Source: Henricia sp. BOLD:AAB3569
Lineage: Eukaryota > Echinodermata > Asteroidea > Spinulosida > Echinasteridae
Length of the DNA stretch: 64,000 nucleotides
Assembly (NCBI GenBank): GCA_037783545.1
Contig: JBBELK010000666.1
Coordinates: 45,001-109,000 of the forward strand
Reading direction: 5' to 3'
Part shown: positions 351-64,000 of the stretch, piece after piece
Numbering within the stretch: position 1 is the stretch's first letter
Layout: each line of letters begins with the position of its first letter
Notes under the pieces: generated by a model
Databases searched by the model: none
Told to the model about the DNA's origin: nothing
The model's input: only the letters and a program-made list of their open reading frames with translations
Translations under genes and position numbers: made by a program

Positions 351-2234
351 TTATAAATCAGTTTGCAGTTTAGCCTTAAAACATTTAACATTTTCTGCGG
401 ACTGGATGTTATTGCTCAGGGAGTTCCACACTATAGCACCTCTGTAGTGAAAACTTCTCCTTAAGGATTCCGTTCTAGGCTTTGGTACAAATACTGCGAG
501 ATTACTTCTTCCGAGACTATATCCTACGTTCATGCAATTAAATTTCTCGGTAAGATATTTAGGAGCAAATTGATTCATTATTTTGTACATTAAAATTGCT
601 TCATGGCGTTTTCTTCGGCTCTCTAGAGTAGTCCAGTTTAATTTATTTAAAATGACATTGCTTGGGGTACTCCATGTGGCGTTTTGAACAAGTCGGGCAC
701 CTCTGTTTTGGAGTTTTTGTAATTTATTCTTGAGTGTGTTTCCACAGTTACCCCAAACAACATCACAATGAGGTCCGACAACTGCATTATACAGTAAATG
801 ACATGTTTGTGTAGGAATGAAATGTTTAGCCTTTTTTATCACATGGAGTCCCCTAAGTATCTTTTTCTTTACATGTTCAAACTGATTTTTCCACGACAAA
901 TTTTCATCTAGAATGACACCGAGATGTTTACAGTCATGTACACGTTTTAGACTAGTCCCATTTATGTTAATGTTAATAGAATCGTTTGGCAATCTATGCA
1001 GTCTTGGCTTTGTACCTATAAGAATGTATTCTGATTTGCTAACATTGAGGCTAAGTTTATTGGTGTCAAGCCAGGTTTTTACATTCTGTAGGTCGGCATT
1101 AATTTTACTTTGTATATCATTTATATTATTTCCGGCATAATACAGAATAGTGTCGTCAGCATACATACTAACTTTACAGTGGTTTAAATTATTAGGTAGA
1201 TCATTGATATATAAAAAAAACATTAAAGGGCCAACAATTGAGCCTTGGGGAATTCCGCATTTAACAGAGGCACATTTGGAATCACTTCCATTTAACGATA
1301 TATAGTGGGATCGACCGTGTAAATAGCTCTTGAACCACTTAAGACTGGATTCATCAACTCCAAAAGTTGTTAGTTTTTCTATCAAAATGTTGTGATCCAC
1401 AGTGTCAAATGCTTTTTTCAGGTCAAGCATCACTACACCAATTATTTCACCCTTGTCAATTCTCGTTAACCAGTCATCCGTAACATTGATTAATGCAGTG
1501 CATGTGGAGTGTAAAGGCCTGAAACCGGACTGGTATTTATTCAGAAGTTGATTAGCGTTCAGGTGATTATAAAATTGGTCAAAAACTGCTCGTTCTAGGA
1601 TCTTTGAAAATATTGGAAGGACGGATATGGGTCTATAATTATTTAAGTCCTCTCTGTCACCACCCTTATGTATCGGAGTTATCTTAGCTTTCTTCCATGC
1701 ATCAGGAAATGTACATGAATTAATAGACAAATTAATAATATGCGTTATAGTCTTGGTGATGCTTGGAGCAGCAAATTTGACAAGTTTAGCTGGACAATTA
1801 TCACACCCTGTGGCTTTATGTTCTGAAATACTATTTAGCTGCTTTAATACAAAAGTTTCGGAGACTGGTTTTAAATGGAATGTTTCGCTACTGCGACTTG
1901 AGGTAGAACTTGCTTCACCTGCAGCATCAGCTGAAATTTGTGATGCAAGTTTAGGTCCTATACTTGCAAAATAGTCATTTAGAATTTCGACAATTTCACA
2001 TGGCTTAGAAATTTCATCGTTGTCGTTACGGATGCAGTTAATTTCACAGTTTTTCTTTTTGGTAGGTAGGCAGGCAGGCAGAATTTTTAAGGTGCTTCCA
2101 TACCTGGGCACTGTCGTTATGGCTAGACTTAATTGCGTCATGAAGGTAATCTCTTTTAGTCTGCCTAATTTTGACATTAATTTGATTACGTAGACATTTG
2201 TACCTTTTCCAACAATCAGGTTGGTTAGTGACAA
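351..2234 (-). CDS. LINE reverse transcriptase domain
   Basis: 627-residue frame containing the RT of the same LINE. Visible blocks: KITPIHKGG and YRPISVLPIFSK (fingers), FRPLHSTCTALI, LDLKKAFDTVDH (block A), GIPQGSIVGPLMF, and the catalytic SMYADDTILYY. The C-terminal thumb and tail are present (IVWNSLSNNIQS), ending in a natural stop. The first 60 or so residues of the frame are read from the endonuclease region in the wrong frame and are not real protein. Real RT sequence starts near position 2090. Confidence 0.88.
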   Translation of the reverse strand: MSLTNLIVGKGTNVYVIKLMSKLGRLKEITFMTQLSLAITTVPRYGSTLKILPACLPTKKKNCEINCIRNDNDEISKPCEIVEILNDYFASIGPKLASQISADAAGEASSTSSRSSETFHLKPVSETFVLKQLNSISEHKATGCDNCPAKLVKFAAPSITKTITHIINLSINSCTFPDAWKKAKITPIHKGGDREDLNNYRPISVLPIFSKILERAVFDQFYNHLNANQLLNKYQSGFRPLHSTCTALINVTDDWLTRIDKGEIIGVVMLDLKKAFDTVDHNILIEKLTTFGVDESSLKWFKSYLHGRSHYISLNGSDSKCASVKCGIPQGSIVGPLMFFLYINDLPNNLNHCKVSMYADDTILYYAGNNINDIQSKINADLQNVKTWLDTNKLSLNVSKSEYILIGTKPRLHRLPNDSINININGTSLKRVHDCKHLGVILDENLSWKNQFEHVKKKILRGLHVIKKAKHFIPTQTCHLLYNAVVGPHCDVVWGNCGNTLKNKLQKLQNRGARLVQNATWSTPSNVILNKLNWTTLESRRKRHEAILMYKIMNQFAPKYLTEKFNCMNVGYSLGRSNLAVFVPKPRTESLRRSFHYRGAIVWNSLSNNIQSAENVKCFKAKLQTDL

Positions 2235-3165
2235 TGGCCATTTTTTTCAAACGGTCCCTTTCGTGAATGACCCCGAGGATGTCTTGATTCATCCAGGGTG
2301 ATTTATATTTTTTAACATGCACGTTTAGTTCTAAAAGGAGCAAAATTTTATTGAAAATGTCTAGAGCCATGTTAACATCGTGCAAGCTAAAAATACAACC
2401 CCAATCAACAAAATACAAATCACTTATAAAACCTGCTTCATTAAAACTGTTATAAGATCGAAATGTTTTCGTAAGATGACCAGAATTTTTGGAAAAACCT
2501 TTACCCATAATAACATAAATCATTGAGTGGTCACTTAGTCCTATATGAATAACACCGCTTTCGGTAATGTTTTCAGTCAATGTACTATACAAAAGATCAA
2601 TTAATGTGGATGAATGTTCGGTTATCCTCGTAGGGGTGTTAATTATTTGTACAAGATGGAAGTTATCACACATATTCATCAGTTTTTTAGTGTGACACGA
2701 GGGATTGGGATGGCTAAGATCGCAGTTTAGATCTCCCAATAATATGACCTCCTTCCCTTCGCTTTCAATAACTTCAAGAATATGCTCTATATGATCAAAT
2801 ATATCAATACTGGAATTTGGCGGTCGGTACCAGTTTAGTAAAATAAATGGCTTAGTCTTACTTAATGTCATTTCAACTGCAATCATTTCAAGATGTTCCG
2901 AGATAAGATCAAATCTGGGCTTGCATTTAATTTGTTTATTAACGTACAAAACAACACCTCCACCATTTTTATTCCTATCTTTCCTATATATATAGAAATT
3001 TTCTACATTTAACTCGCTATCAATTATTGTATCATCAAGTCTAGTTTCACAGAGGCCAAAAACATCGATATAATTATTTGTCAGAATAAATCTTATTTCA
3101 TCAAAATTGCGGGGCAAGCTTCTGATATTTAGATGCGCTAGCTTTAATCCCTTTTTATTATTTGG
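2044..3165 (-). CDS. LINE APE endonuclease domain
   Basis: Apurinic-like endonuclease that nicks target DNA for target-primed reverse transcription. Motifs in order: HLNIRSL at the very start (upstream of the first methionine at 3117, so the domain begins near 3165), GLCETRLD with the catalytic Glu, NWYRPP, LLGDLNCDL with Asp and Asn, and SDHSMI with the terminal Asp-His pair. All expected catalytic residues are visible. The frame closes at 2044 after running a short way into sequence belonging to the RT frame, consistent with a frameshift in the tetranucleotide tract around 2070. Confidence 0.85.
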   Translation of the reverse strand, partial: PNNKKGLKLAHLNIRSLPRNFDEIRFILTNNYIDVFGLCETRLDDTIIDSELNVENFYIYRKDRNKNGGGVVLYVNKQIKCKPRFDLISEHLEMIAVEMTLSKTKPFILLNWYRPPNSSIDIFDHIEHILEVIESEGKEVILLGDLNCDLSHPNPSCHTKKLMNMCDNFHLVQIINTPTRITEHSSTLIDLLYSTLTENITESGVIHIGLSDHSMIYVIMGKGFSKNSGHLTKTFRSYNSFNEAGFISDLYFVDWGCIFSLHDVNMALDIFNKILLLLELNVHVKKYKSPWMNQDILGVIHERDRLKKMAIVTNQPDCWKRYKCLRNQINVKIRQTKRDYLHDAIKSSHNDSAQVWKHLKNSACLPTYQKEKL

Positions 3166-6452: not shown

Positions 6453-7308
6453 ATATGGTCTATTATAATAGTTATATATGTCTGTATGCAGCCATATCGT
6501 CATGTAGCGCCCTCTGCTGACGCACGGCGCGTGATGCCCTCTTCATTTCCGGTGTGGTAACTGTAAACACGACATGACAATAATTATTGTTGCTAGTCTC
6601 GCTCGGATGCTTTTCGTCAATCTCTTCGTAGGTTATTATTATTACTGATTAAAGTGTGCAAGAATTTGTGTAATGAGCCGAGTACTTGAACGTGTACGAT
6701 AAGGACCGAGAGCAGCTATCTAGTGCAACATGCCAGGGTGGATGCCGGCTTGTCTTCGGGGATCAAGTGACGGTAAAAACAAGTTTATCCTGCAAGCACC
6801 TAAATTCGCGCGGGCACGTAATTAAGCGCGCTGCTGCTTTCCTCGGCGTATCTTCTCAACAAAATCACGCACTGACGTCAAATTTTTGTTGAAAGTTGTT
6901 TGTCACATCATCTTTTAATTTGCATTCAAATGAGAAAAAATAAGGGTTTCTCAGTAAGTAATTGAATAACTGTTAATTCAGGGTACAAAATTCTACCTTA
7001 GATTAGCAGATTAGGTTTTGGTTTTAGTGGGTACAAATTACTACACTCAAAACGGTTCTAAGAAATCTTTAAAATTCACGAAAACCTTTACCACCGATCG
7101 TCTGCTCAGTCTCCAAGCACTAAAAAACAATATTGATTAGGTTTTACTTTCCAAAAGAGGGTGCTTTGGCTAAACTATAGAATGCAGGGCCCACTATACT
7201 TCAATCTCTACGTCTCCGGAGACGTGGTCACGGTGGTCACGGACTTGCACATTCATATGTTGCGCCCTCTTTAAAATGAACTGTGAATATATTGCGCCCT
7301 CTATATAA

Positions 7309-7990
7309 AGTCTGGAAATAGAGGGCGTTCTCCGTTTCAACTTAATTCGACCGCCCCCCGCCCCCCATCCACAACAGTCTCCGCGTCGCCGCTCCTCCAG
7401 CTGTCCAGAAACCCTCTTACCTGGAATAATCTCGGCACGAGAGGCATATTGAAAAAAAGGTAAATAAAGTCTGGAAATAGAGGGCGTTCTACGTTTCACC
7501 TTAATTCGACAGGCCCCCCCCCCCCCCCACCCCAATCCACAACCGTCTCCGCGTCGCCGCTCCTCCAGAGACCCTCTTACCTGGAATAATCTCGGCACGA
7601 GAGGGATATTAAAAAAAGGTAAATAAAGTCTGGAAATAGAGGGCGTTCTACGTTTCAACTTAATTCGACACGCCCCCCCCCCCCCACCCCCAATCCACAA
7701 CCGTCTCCGCGTCGACGCTCCTCCAAAGACCCTCTTACATGGAATAATCTCGGCACGAGAGGGATATTTAAAAAAAAGGTAAATAAAGTCTGCAAATAGA
7801 GGGCGTTCTACGTTTTAACTTAATTTGATCCCCTCCCCCTATCCACAACCGTCTCCGGGTCGCCGCGTCTCCGCTTCTCCAGAGACCCTCTTACCTGGAA
7901 TAATCTCGGCACGAGAGGGATATTTAAAAAAGGTAAATAAAGTCTGGAAATAGAGGGCGTTCTATCTTTAACTTTATTCGGTGTCCAGAG
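7309..7990. repeat. Tandem satellite, about 159-bp unit, 4.3 copies
   Basis: The marker AGTCTGGAAATAGAGGGCG recurs at 7309, 7468, 7627, 7787 (one mismatch) and 7941, giving periods of 159, 159, 160 and 154. Each unit carries a C-rich run (8 to 14 consecutive C in several copies) that varies in length between units, then CCACAACCGTCTCCGCGTCG and CTCGGCACGAGAGG. Minus-strand frames through it (RRTPSISRLYLPF) are repeat translations, not genes. Confidence 0.85.
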
Positions 7991-11549: not shown

Positions 11550-14158
11550 CTAGCATTGATAGTAATTTAAATTATTATTATTATTATTATTATTACTGTA
11601 TGGAATCAGGATCCTTGGGATCAAATGTGCAGTAGATTTGGGTATCATCGGCATAAATGTGAAAGAGTAAATTGTGTTTGCGAATAATGTTTCCGATCGG
11701 TTTAGTATATAGATGGTAAACGCTACTGGTCCGAGGACGGAACCTTGAGGAACACCGAAGTTTAATGACTTAGGTTGCGAGAGTGCGGAATCAACACGTA
11801 CTCGGTATGATCGATTACTGAGGTAGCTGCGAAACCAGGACAGTGCGGTATTAGTAAGTCTGAGAGTTTCACCGAGTCTCCGCAGAAGAATTGGATGGTC
11901 CACCGTGTCAAAGGCTGCACTTAAAGGAACACACCTTCTTTGTTGGGCTATTTTGGCTCGAAATAGACCCATACATTATTCTGAAGCGCATTCGAGAGTA
12001 AATTAGATATATCCTGAAAATACGCCGTCAAATTTAGCCGTTTTTGAGCACTTTTGAAAAATCCAAGGTCACGTGACTTTTCGGAACCAAATTCTGGTTC
12101 CGAAAAGTCAAGTGGTCTTGTGAGTTAGTTGTATTTCCAGCCGTATAAAACTTTTTTACTGCAGAACTGCACCAAATTCAACTCTGATTTCCCCCCAATA
12201 TTTATAAGTAATTCACAAAAGAGAGACTATTTATACAGGTATGAAACAAAGTTAAACTAAAGTAAAGTATGAAAATTCGAACATAATTGTTTGTTTCGAG
12301 AGTCCGGAGAACGGGAGCGAGCGCGTGCTACGGCAGGCTACCGTGGAGTGTAGAAATTTGGCCCGCGCAGTACACGGCAAATAGCCTGAGTGCACACACA
12401 CACGGAAGGGCGTGTTGCTTCGGTGCACGTACGTTCGTGAAGAAAAAAACATGATGCCAACGCCTCAAAAGAAAACGGAAATTCCTATTCGGTCGTCCGG
12501 GCTGTCCAGTGAAATCGTGAGCAGAAAATTTGAGATATTCTGAGCAGGAGAAGAGCGAATCGTTTGTGACAAAGTCGTGAGGCTCTCGCGTAGTTGCAGC
12601 GGCTGGTAAAGCGTATAACCCGTCTTTTGACCGTTTTCGTTATTTTTGCACTTCTTTAGTAAATTACGGGATATTTTGATGAATTTTTTTCGCAACGACC
12701 ATCAAAAAAGTATCGTCAATGCTGCTACATCACTAAATCATGTAAACAGTAGGCAGGTGTGTACCTTTAAGTCGAGAAGGACAATGAATACGCCCTTCCT
12801 GTCGCCAATTGCCTGCAAAATATCGTTCTTCAATGAGAGTATAGGGCGGTCTCGGTGCTATGCCCTGACCTGTATGCCGACTGGTAAGATTCGCAAAGGT
12901 TGTGCTGAACCATTTGCGTTGTTATGCGGGAAACCACGACCTTTTCGATGACTTTTGAAAGAAACGGGAGGTTTGACACAGGACGGTAATTGGCCAGTTC
13001 ATTTTCGTCAGCTGAAGGCCGTTTGAGAACCGGCGTTACAACCGCGTGCTTCAAGGATTCTGGAAAGGTGCCACTCGAAAGTGATGTGTTGACTATGTGA
13101 GTGATGAGTGGAACAAACGTTGAAACGTTGGACTTCAAAAGCCATGTGGGGATAGGATCCAGACTACTGGACTTATTAGGTGAAGAACAGATAATTGTAT
13201 GAATTTCACTCTGTGATGCAGCTACAAAGTCCAAAATGGGTACATCAGGAGGGACACTAGTATCAGAATGACTCTGTGTATAATCTGCTAGTCTCCAGAT
13301 GTTTGCGGATGTCTGATATTTTTGCATCAAAGAAATTCACAAAGTCGTTGGCTAATGACTGGTTGCAATCACGTGGAGTTAGGGGTTTAACTTTCCGCTG
13401 TAATAGGGTATCGACTGTCCGAAAAATGGCTTTTGTGTCGGCATTTTCCAACTCGCTGGAGAAATGTGCTCGCTTAGCCTCTTCAATGAGAGAGTTAACG
13501 TGTTTCCGATGATCCATGAATACTTTGTGGTGATATTCCAGACGGTTCTTCCGCCATAGTCGTTCACTCTGACGTCGCTTTTTCCTTGCAGCGTGGATCT
13601 CTGCATTCTACCATAGCTGACGCAATCGGACTTTACTTGACTGAGTTATCGATGTCCGATCTAAAAAGGCGCAAGTCGATCGACCGAAGATTACGCAGAG
13701 TGTACACATATGCGGATAGCTGGGCTTAGTGAGGTAAGAGTGCAACAAACGACATTATGATCCGATAAAAAGTTTTCATCGACGACACATGATTGGACGA
13801 TGCCATCCTCCTCACGACTCATGACTAAATCTAGGATATGACCACTCGAATGTGTCGGTTCTGTCACAAACTGCTTTAGACCAACTGTCGATACAATTGC
13901 TATGAACTGGGAGGCATCAGAGCGTGATGGTTGGTCGATGTGCAGGTTGAAGTCTCCGATGATGAGGATCTTGAGTGAGTTCAGTGTTGAGTTGCCAAGG
14001 AATAAATCAAATTCGTCTAAAAACTGCGATGTAGTGAACCTGTTCTTAGGCGACAGAGGACGCCTATAAATAACTATTATATTGATCGCTCGTTGCCGGT
14101 CTGTAAAATACGCATGTTCAAAATTGTTGGTAATTAGACCAGTCTGCTGACGACGCAA
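11550..14158 (-). mobile_element. LINE, CR1/L2-like, interrupted by a TTAA element
   Basis: Minus-strand LINE in pieces. Endonuclease part at 14,158-13,691 (IIGDFNLHID, FVTEPTHSSGHILDLV, LSDHNVVCC). Linker at 13,517-13,263. RT fingers at 13,330-12,830 (VVTPVLKRP, YRPVSNLPFLSKV, GHSTETAL). RT palm at 11,921-11,597 (AAFDTVDHPILL, GVPQGSVLGP, then HIYADDTQIY in another frame). Several frameshifts are present, including one after the GVPQGSVLGP block. A TTAA element sits exactly within the LLDL/SAAFDT junction. The element stops shortly after the YADD motif at an (ATT)n run, so the RT thumb is missing. Confidence 0.85.
11925..12766. mobile_element. TTAA-flanked element inserted in LINE RT
   Basis: 842 bp flanked by TTAA at 11,921-11,924 and 12,767-12,770. 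Ends are inverted repeats AGGAACACACCTT and AGGTACACACCTG. Removing the element and one TTAA restores the codons for LLDL-SAAFDT in the LINE, which proves both borders. A subterminal hairpin (TTTTCGGAACCA facing TGGTTCCGAAAA) lies at about 12,068-12,120. No transposase frame is present. Piggybac-like mobilisation in trans is inferred from the TTAA duplication. Confidence 0.88.
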
Positions 14159-18896: not shown

Positions 18897-18938
18897 CAGA
18901 TATTGCGTTGTGTGACTGTGTGTCGGGACTCTTGTGTA

Positions 18939-19076
18939 CGAATGACTGGTAATGACAAAGTAAACAAATTGTCCATCATCTCCCATCAGCAGGTTCTCAG
19001 GTGTATCATACTCTACCACGGCGCCTTCCCTCATAACTATGATGCGATCTGCATCCAGGATGGTTCTTACACGATG
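18939..19076 (-). pseudogene. Tandem second copy of the terminal exon
   Basis: Encodes [40 protein letters not shown], then TSHS. About 80 percent identical to exon 16, with an AG acceptor (CTTAG) retained. The position of the stop codon is TCG here, so the frame runs on through SYTRVPTHSHTTQYLV to a TAA near 18,888. Offset between copies is 161-164 bp. It could be an alternative last exon; with no transcript evidence I list it as a duplicate. Confidence 0.8.
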
Positions 19077-19099
19077 CTAAGTGTAGTGACTCTTGTGTA

Positions 19100-61210
<42,111 letters not shown>

Positions 61211-61440
61211 CTGAACATACAAACATGTTAAATAAACTTGGCATTAGGATCGGGAAAGGTTGTAAATGTATATAATAAAATAATGTATGAACTATTACAG
61301 CACGGTATGAGTCAACTGCTATGTGAGAGCTACATATATCCCACCCTAAATGATCAAACGTGAACATGAAAGTTCATGAAAAAAGTTCTTCATATCAACA
61401 TGCTTAAAGCGCAGAGCAGAGGGTTGTTATAGATCTTTCT
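61211..61440. other. Intron between exon 1 of window and the 48-bp array
   Basis: Ordinary intron with a polypyrimidine-poor acceptor TATGTTCAG for exon 1. Nothing else seen. Confidence 0.5.
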
Positions 61441-64000
61441 AATATGGCAATGTCATTGTGGCTGTCGATAGCCCTAGTCACTCTTACCAATATGACAATG
61501 CCATTGTGGCCGTCGATAGCCCTATATAGCCACTCTTACCAATATGACAATGCCATTGTGGCTGTCGATAGCCCTACAGCCACTCTTACCAATATGGCAA
61601 TGTCATTGTGGCTGTAGATAGCCTTAATTATAGCCCTAGCCACTCTTACCAATATGACAATGTCATTGTGGCTCTAGATAGCCCTAGCCATTCTTACCAA
61701 TATGACAATGCCATTGTACCTGTAGATAGCCCTAGCCACTCTTACCAATATGACAATGCCAATGTGACTGTAGATTGCCATATTGGTAAGAGTGGCTAGG
61801 GCTATGTCATTGTGGCTGTAGATAGCCCTAGCCACTCTTACCAATACGACAATGCCATTGTGGCTGTGGATAGCCCTAGCCACTCTTACCAATATGACAA
61901 TGCCAATGTGACTGTAGATTGCCATATTGGTAAGAGTGGCTAGGGCTATGTCATTGTGGCTGTAGATAGCCCTAGCCACTCTTAGCAATATGACAATGCC
62001 ATTGTAGCTGTAGATAGCCCTAGCCACTCTTACCAATATGACAATGCCAATGTGACTGTAGATTGCCATATTGGTAAGAGTGGCTATAGGGCTATGTCAT
62101 TGTGGCTGTAGATAGCCCTAGCCACTCTTACCAATACGACAATACCATTGTGGCTGTAGATAGCCCTAGCCACTCTTACCAATATGACAATGTCATTGTG
62201 GCTGTATATAGCCCTAGCCACTCTTACCAATATGGCAATGTCATTGTGGCTGTAGATAGCCCTAGCCACTCTTACCAATTTGACAATGTCATTGTTGCTG
62301 TAGATAGCCCTAGCCACTCTTACCAATATGGCAATGTCATTGTGGCTGTAGATAGCCCTAGCCACTCTTACCAATACGACAATGCCAATGTGGCTGTAGC
62401 CCTAGCCACTCTTACCAATATGGCAATGTCATTGTGGCTGTAGATAGCCCTAGCCACTCTTACCAATATGGCAATGTCATTGTGGCTGTAGATAGCCCTA
62501 GCCACTCTTACCAATACGACAATGCCAATGTGGCTGTAGCCCTAGCCACTCTTACCAATATGGCAATGTCATTGTGGCTGTAGATAGCCCTAGCCACTCT
62601 TACCAATACGACAATGTCATTGTGGCTGTAGATAGCCCTAGCCACTCTTACCAATACGACAATGCCATTGTGGCTGTAGATAGCCCTAGCCACTCTTACC
62701 AATATGGCAATGTCATTGTTGCTGTAGATAGCCCTAGCCACTCTTACCAATACGACAATGCCATTGTGGCTGTAGATAGCCCTAGCCACTCTTACCAATA
62801 TGGCAATGTCATTGTGGCTGTAGATAGCCCTAGCCACTCTTACCAATATGACAATGTCATTGTGGCTGTAGATAGCCCTAGCCACTCTTACCAATATGGC
62901 AATGTCATTGTGGCTGTAGATAGCCCTAGCCACTCTTACCAATACGACAATGCCAATGTGGCTGTAGCCCTAGCCACTCTTACCAATATGGCAATGTCAT
63001 TGTGGCTGTAGATAGCCCTAGCCACTCTTACCAATATGACAATGTCATTGTGGCTGTAGATAGCCCTAGCCACTCTTACCAATACGACAATGCCATTGTG
63101 GCTGTAGATAGCCCTAGCCACTCTTACCAATATGGCAATGTCATTGTGGCTGTAGATAGCCCTAGCCACTCTTACCAATTTGACAATGTCATTGTTGCTG
63201 TAGATAGCCCTAGCCACTCTTACCAATATGGCAATGTCATTGTTGCTGTAGATAGCCCTAGCCACTCTTACCAATATGGCAATGTCATTGTTGCTGTAGA
63301 TAGCCCTAGCCACTCTTAGCAATATGACAATGCCATTGTAGCTGTAGATAGCCCTAGCCACTCTTACCAATATGACAATGCCAATGTGACTGTAGATTGC
63401 CATATTGGTAAGAGTGGCTATAGGGCAATGTCATTGTGGCTGTAGATAGCCCTAGCCACTCTTACCAATACGACAATGTCATTGTGGCTGTAGATAGCCC
63501 TAGCCACTCTTACCAATATGGCAATGTCATTGTGGCTGTAGATAGCCCTAGCCACTCTTACCAATATGGCAATGTCATTGTGGCTGTAGATAGCCCTAGC
63601 CACTCTTACCAATATGGCAATGTCATTGTGGCTGTAGATAGCCCTAGCCACTCTTACCAATATGGCAATGTCATTGTTGCTGTAGATAGCCCTAGCCACT
63701 CTTACCAATATGGCAATGTCATTGTGGCTGTAGATAGCCCTAGCCACTCTTACCAATATGGCAATGTCATTGTGGCTGTAGATAGCCCTAGCCACTCTTA
63801 CCAATATGGCAATGTCATTGTGGCTGTAGATAGCCCTAGCCACTCTTACCAATATGGCAATGTCATTGTTGCTGTAGATAGCCCTAGCCACTCTTACCAA
63901 TATGGCAATGTCATTGTTGCTGTAGATAGCCCTAGCCACTCTTACCAATATGGCAATGTCATTGTGGCTGTAGATAGCCCTAGCCACTCTTACCAATATG
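61440..64000 (-). repeat. 48-bp tandem array derived from an NBD1 exon end and its donor, about 53 units, open at window end
   Basis: Plus-strand unit GATAGCCCTAGCCACTCTTA then CCAATATGGCAATGTCATTG and TGGCTGTA. The minus strand reads VARAIYSHNDIAIL (42 bases) then GTAAGA, read as VR. In ABCC proteins VARALY...D-hydrophobics directly precedes Walker B DDPLSALD, and exon 61,073-61,210 starts exactly at DDPLSALD. So the unit is the 3' end of the preceding exon plus six intron bases. 48 is a multiple of three, so frames stay open for hundreds of bases on both strands. Four units contain inverted pieces. Confidence 0.93.

Follow-up and report, generated by a model that had tools for sequence, protein, structure and literature searches.

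A 48-bp minisatellite of more than fifty units, which runs into one end of the analysed stretch of sea-star DNA (the window, 64,000 nucleotides), raises the question of where such a repeat comes from and what its position inside a transporter gene entails for the product of that gene. The original prediction took it for the amplified end of an ABC-transporter exon fused to its own 5' splice site, each unit of which would offer an in-frame extension of the protein. The analysis points, with a probability of roughly 0.8, to the following answer: the minisatellite (array 1) derives from an exon-intron boundary of its own host gene, amplified by boundary-spanning tandem duplication, and is spliced out as intron, like the lancelet repeats known as mirages.

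The host gene

On the minus strand, 14 exons between 61210 and 34990 agree in phase, have canonical GT/AG borders and together yield a frame of 647 aa that contains no stop (Table 1). The product aligns end to end with residues 832-1479 of SUR2B (E 4e-178); late NBD1, TMD2 and NBD2 are collinear with SUR and the frame is intact, which places the gene in the ABCC8/9 (SUR)-like class. Members of the SUR (ABCC8/9) class have a Kir6 channel as partner. Sea stars provide the closest proteins among the matches listed: a Patiria miniata protein is 80% identical over 528 aa, and Acanthaster planci and Asterias amurensis proteins are 78% and 72% identical to the 647-aa product, respectively; Branchiostoma proteins reach 40-48% identity among the matches listed. 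On this evidence the DNA most probably comes from an asteroid. The homologue lists comprise the best 120 of 1723 and the best 120 of 7631 matches, and scoring was confined to the candidates with most words in common (7992 and 7971).

Several mobile-element-like stretches, named by eye, share the window with the gene: minus-strand ORFs at 351-3117 and 11550-14158 resemble LINE-type reverse transcriptase and endonuclease, and related tRNA-like, SINE-looking stretches occur on the same strand at 60590-60790 and 46122-46736. Like series of small tandem repeats are found at 20395-21268 and 32660-33528, about 12.3 kb apart; they are probably copies of one dispersed element.

Table 1. Exons, tandem arrays and boundary copies of the SUR-like gene (positions in the window)
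Feature	Position	Strand	Source and remarks
Array 1, 48-bp minisatellite, at least 53 units, meets window edge	61434..64000	-	TRF, 53.3 copies
Inverted piece within array 1, arm of I2	63396..63429	+	Inverted repeats
Further inverted pieces in array 1	62062-62095, 61918-61949, 61774-61805		Inverted-repeat search
Exon A, NBD1 from Walker B aspartates on, ends YAQK, phase 0	61073..61210	-	Acceptor GTTCAG, donor GTAATTA; SUR2B alignment from residue 832
Exon C, TMD2 start, authentic copy	57920..58146	-	Joined-frame model
Copy of last 99 bp of exon C + intron, 86.5% identical	57748..57873	-	blastn; TRF row 57748-58018
Partial exon C copies	57653-57713, 57577-57653, 57323-57372	-	blastn
Exon I, begins ASTMLNWF, in phase	50096..50207	-	Joined-frame model; adjoins array 2
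Array 2, 97-bp unit, ~24 copies	47768..50153	-	TRF, exon-versus-window blastn
315-bp duplication (98%), exon J acceptor + first 83 bp	46963..47589	-	TRF, blastn
Exon J, NBD2 start, authentic copy	46918..47045	-	Joined-frame model
Three degenerate upstream copies of exon N, acceptor + first part (74, 78, 81%)	35199..35573	-	blastn
Exon N, NBD2 signature + Walker B, authentic copy	34990..35123	-	Joined-frame model
Exon O, boundaries approximate	20008..20070	-	tblastn with relatives
Exon P, last exon	19241-19092	-	tblastn with relatives
Exon P + downstream copy 18920-19078 (86%), including acceptor region	18920..19242	-	TRF, blastn, tblastn

Anatomy of array 1

The repeat that had been reported up to position 64000 on the minus strand is real, and TRF recovers it at 61434-64000, up to the window edge. 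Read on that strand, the consensus unit is made of 42 bp of exon-like sequence, GTGGCTAGGGCTATCTACAGCCACAATGACATTGCCATATTG, and the donor GTAAGA, and it translates into VARAIYSHNDIAIL followed by VR. This composition, which had been ascribed to every unit, stands as a consensus and fails as a universal description. Within the 2.6 kb of array in the window, 47 exact GTAAGA donors are counted, where about 53 had been announced; the 46 intervals between them measure 48 bp in 35 cases, 44 bp in three and 50-144 bp in eight, and the exact consensus is found in 16 of the 46. Four inverted pieces, matched by four TCTTAC on the minus strand, lie among the units. A 24-mer from the array, allowed up to three mismatches, matched 44 times when the whole window was searched, always inside the array (shuffle mean 0.00).

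The array ends 223 bp upstream of exon A; at its far end a decayed donor passes directly into unique intron, as expected for a tandem duplication that spans a donor. Divergence from the consensus is graded, from about 1% near 64,000 to 15-16% at 61.5-62.1 kb. This gradient and the inverted pieces also bear on whether assembly has inflated or scrambled the copy number of a true allele with fewer units: such arrays are hard to assemble, and in the work on lancelet globins a mirage is reported to be mis-assembled in the draft genome, but neither property resembles a collapsed or duplicated read stack, and an artefact of this kind is quite improbable.

Register with the protein family

What the unit encodes can be compared with the residues that relatives carry at the corresponding place. 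In the four nearest full-length sea-star proteins, the 14 residues before DDP(L/F)SALD read VARAMYSHNDLVIL, VARAMYSPNDIVIL, VARAIYSHHDIVIL and VARAVYSHNDIVIL, and VARAIYSHNDIAIL is identical to these at 11-12 of 14 positions without a gap; the comparison drew on 230 fetched proteins, of which 212 fit the pattern and 18 were left out for pattern mismatch. Against a profile of 166 distinct homologous 14-mers, with any rotation and both strands allowed, the array unit reaches a score of 33.8, whereas 5000 shuffled units peak at 5.4 and 5000 random 48-mers of the window at 9.9, so that neither control contains a single score as high (0/5000 each). The Acanthaster protein, read across the exon A junction, identifies the unit as the missing exon end in exact register. 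The intron before exon A splits the Walker B motif (IAIL/DD), and one partial echinoid model among the 230 fetched proteins, P0011, begins exactly at DDPLSALD. The expectation that the unit peptide precedes the exon starting at 61,210 is supported by the acceptor and phase of exon A and by the relatives, in which the same peptide stands directly before DDP(L/F)SALD.

An unrelated satellite, whose likeness to the exon is due to chance or which was inserted from elsewhere, would have to account for the empty controls, for the correct strand, intron and phase, and for an array at exon I that is built alike; it can be set aside as exceedingly improbable. The array DNA pattern has no match in viral and prokaryote collections, which says little about animals; no protein built of the array 1 repeat was found at E <= 0.001 among 7995 scored candidates, and Rfam returned no match over 18000-64000. 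There is strong support for deriving array 1, by amplification, from an ABCC exon end that falls between the NBD1 signature and Walker B, along with the 5' splice site of that exon; the support comes both from the register in relatives and from array 2, the source exon of which is visible. The source exon of array 1 itself would lie just past 64,000, beyond the window.

Other boundary duplications in the gene

Fifteen exons (A-N and P), each with 60-bp flanks, were compared with the window by blastn, and extra exon copies were found for five of them: C, I, J, N and P. No extra copies in the window were detected for exons A, B, E, F, G, H, K, L and M, and none for exon D, of which only a 38-bp copy of the intronic flank appeared. 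The exonic part of the copies ranges from 58 to 150 bp. Three situations occur: (i) the donor side is hit at exons C and I and, by homology, in array 1; (ii) the acceptor side is hit at exons J and N; (iii) at exon P the terminal exon is affected. Because each duplication crosses one border, donor-side copies lie downstream and acceptor-side copies upstream of their exon.

Array 2 is contiguous with its visible source, exon I. Its unit comprises the last 58 bp of the exon and the first 39 bp of the intron, including the donor GTATCAAG, of which there are 20 exact instances when that of exon I itself is counted. Unlike array 1, it displays no end-to-end gradient of divergence, its diverged part being internal (48,250-48,750 bins). 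At 50096-50150, exon I ends in TEDCTG and most array 2 units in TEDYTG, and Patiria and Acanthaster have the Y, which suggests that exon I changed after the array had formed or escaped homogenisation. The copies of exon C are likewise contiguous with the authentic exon and downstream of it. On the acceptor side, the upstream copy of exon J (47278-47420) matches the start and flank of the exon without a difference (100% over 143 bp), and its reading frame runs into a stop. Exon P and its copy are both open to a stop and each follows an AG; one of them ends in FVYFVITSHSYTRVPTHSHTTQYLV and the stop, and a role as alternative terminal exon is possible.

Two further repeats of the window carry no recognised exon. 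A 159-bp tandem array of about four units (7302-7980) has the donor-like CAGGTAAGAG on the minus strand at 7897, 7583 and 7423 and might possibly be a further boundary repeat; an intronic 117-136-bp tandem repeat is situated at 53183-53922.

Placement of the duplicated segments

Whether boundaries are hit more often than chance would have it depends on what is placed at random. Whole-array spans touch an exon boundary at 5 of 12 loci, with 3.27 expected under random placement (P 0.20); this test lacks significance since, with exons so densely set, a long array will often reach a boundary. When the duplicated segment itself is placed at random, 6 of 12 loci span a boundary versus 0.84 expected (P 0.00006), and 5 of 11 do so if array 1 is omitted (P 0.0006). 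Across 12 settings that varied E-value, masking and length, with array 1 scored as non-spanning, 5 of 9-11 loci span a boundary versus about 0.7 expected (P 0.0002-0.00045), figures that may be biased toward enrichment, as observed arms may exceed one unit and the null uses unit length. The segment-based tests are judged to ask the right question, rather than whole-span overlap, and they concern one gene only.

Reading frame, constraint and donor strength

The claim that any copy's donor keeps the frame proved wrong. Read in frame from the 64,000 edge, array 1 reaches its first stop at 63420; 12 of the 47 donors precede this stop, all of them in phase 0, and the phases of all 47 are distributed 16/17/14. 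The 97-bp unit of array 2 is not a multiple of three, and only one of its 20 exact donors, namely that of exon I, comes before a stop. Read-through of exon C into its copy terminates at 57850, ahead of the copy's donor. Neither array 2 nor the exon C copies can therefore add protein.

In array 1 the donor hexamer changes at a frequency of 0.071 versus 0.060 for the exon part, and codon positions 1, 2 and 3 at 0.060, 0.087 and 0.031; that position 3 is the least variable is the opposite of coding constraint, and coding selection on the array was rejected on this ground and on the spectrum of changes: the 35 units of 48 bp show 12 distinct changes, of which 10 are non-synonymous, a share near that among all possible changes (99 of 126). 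The corresponding frequencies in array 2 are 0.049 for the donor, 0.070 for the exon part and 0.075 for the intron part, and 0.081, 0.052 and 0.076 for the three codon positions; the slightly lower variability of its donor is a hint of constraint that is too small to weigh. There is no clear sign of selection on the protein or on the donors of array 1. The gain of 16 residues per unit, in which the significance of the array had been seen, consequently carries little weight: few donors precede the stop, third positions vary least, the donor is no better conserved than the remainder of the unit, and array 2 runs into a stop before its second donor.

Pairing of the array 1 donor with U1 amounts to -8.0 kcal/mol, the mean for the 14 real donors of the gene being -8.26, and as strong a pairing is found at only 1.8% of 2488 other GT sites in the region; the array donors could thus work. 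It is possible that inner donors in the 12 units of array 1 next to the 64,000 edge serve as splice decoys or alternative sites. If inner donors were used regularly, NBD1 isoforms would form a ladder, lengthened in steps of 16 residues (16, 32 and more), and could act as a length switch within an ATPase domain. The phase of the 12 leading donors and their strength are compatible with such a ladder, as is the hydrophobic strand that every unit rebuilds ahead of the Walker B aspartates, and a human minisatellite, that of IFI6, is reported to supply splice donors (PMC4526556). It is nevertheless unlikely, given that an in-frame stop precedes 35 of the 47 donors, that the frame is lost at three units of 44 bp and at further indels, that third codon positions are the most conserved, that more than two copies of the unit motif occur in none of the 230 fetched relatives, and that the copies at exons I and C meet a stop before the copy's donor.

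Alternatively, the mass of donors could control splicing, acting as a decoy for U1 and thereby delaying or regulating excision of the intron. Forty-seven donors of normal strength in 2.6 kb, matched by so few other GT sites, would suit this role, but their bases are not more conserved than the rest of the unit, and the acceptor-side duplications at exons J and N do not fit; a decoy function must be rated as very improbable.

A model for the origin of array 1

The favoured explanation, a boundary-spanning duplication that is removed with the intron, would start from a short segment, 42 bp from the end of the NBD1 exon and 6 bp from the start of its intron, which was duplicated in tandem; slippage or unequal exchange may then have expanded it, within the intron, to over 50 units. 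At least five other exons of the gene were struck in a like manner, and at exon I the copies likewise grew into a kilobase array. The full exon would stay functional because splicing takes the copy with both borders, and the surplus copies would sit in the intron and drift. Splicing would normally use the donor of the full exon and remove the copies, and the driving force is presumably mutational rather than selection for the product.

A more far-reaching proposal, doubtful at present, is that exon-intron boundaries are hot spots of tandem amplification here, through a boundary-directed process, common to sea stars and lancelets, that repeatedly produces minisatellites with donors or acceptors, and that array 1 is a large in-phase instance, able to supply NBD1 isoforms of stepped length or new introns; a process common to both groups would perhaps be old in deuterostomes. 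Whatever their origin, such arrays can mislead gene models, as they resemble coding exons with valid donors.

Comparison with known systems

A minisatellite with multiple splice donors was reportedly described for IFI6 by Turri et al. in 1995. According to a paper that cites this work, two downstream repeat units of the human IFI6 (6-16, G1P3) minisatellite act as splice donors (PMC4526556). Array 1 resembles this case in that a minisatellite multiplies the donor of an exon end; in IFI6 the repeat donors are reported to be used, whereas those of array 1 are candidate donors. In human segmentally duplicated genes, internal tandem repeats at exon-intron boundaries were described by De Grassi and Ciccarelli in 2009 (PMC2812944). 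These are minisatellite units at boundaries, as here, which are sometimes spliced out and sometimes kept; they differ in averaging 4 units of 30 bp and in that transcripts back a comparison of paralogues. A boundary-crossing tandem duplication gave rise to a new intron in an RdRp gene of potato, as stated by Ma et al. 2016 (PMC4974935). There, too, the duplicated segment crosses an intron-exon boundary, but a single duplication made an intron that is used, whereas the intron number of the SUR-like gene seems unchanged.

The closest counterparts are the mirages of lancelets, which passages of two papers (PMC3087553, PMC3902484) define as tandem repeats that span an exon-intron boundary together with the splice signal. 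In these passages, mirages affect the 5' or 3' exon boundary, are contiguous with the authentic exon, show length polymorphism or somatic instability, and are reported not to disturb splicing; the cases include BflGb6, with 3-6 units, and Adh3, to which troponin C and PGBD5 are added (PMC3902484). The SUR-like gene agrees with these descriptions in four respects: the units span the boundary with its splice signal (in array 2, and by homology in array 1); they adjoin the authentic exon, as can be seen at exons C and I, that of array 1 presumably lying beyond the window; donor-side (C, I, array 1) and acceptor-side (J, N) cases are both present; and units at one boundary of the cluster are diverged. 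It differs in being an echinoderm-type rather than a cephalochordate gene, which touches the described range and not the structural definition, and in having six affected exons in one gene and two arrays, one of about 24 units and one of over 50, compared with 3-6 in BflGb6. With its boundary-spanning units, adjoining exons and involvement of both sides, the six-exon case appears to fit the structural definition of a mirage.

A search of the open-licence literature found no paper on boundary repeats in echinoderms or sea stars, which does not imply their absence in print. The type of structure is already described in lancelets; the animal group of the host and the density of such duplications are new. 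Boundary-spanning minisatellites are thereby extended from lancelets to a sea star, with six exons in one gene, and such a case makes boundary preference, intron gain and alternative donors testable genome-wide with existing assemblies and RNA reads.
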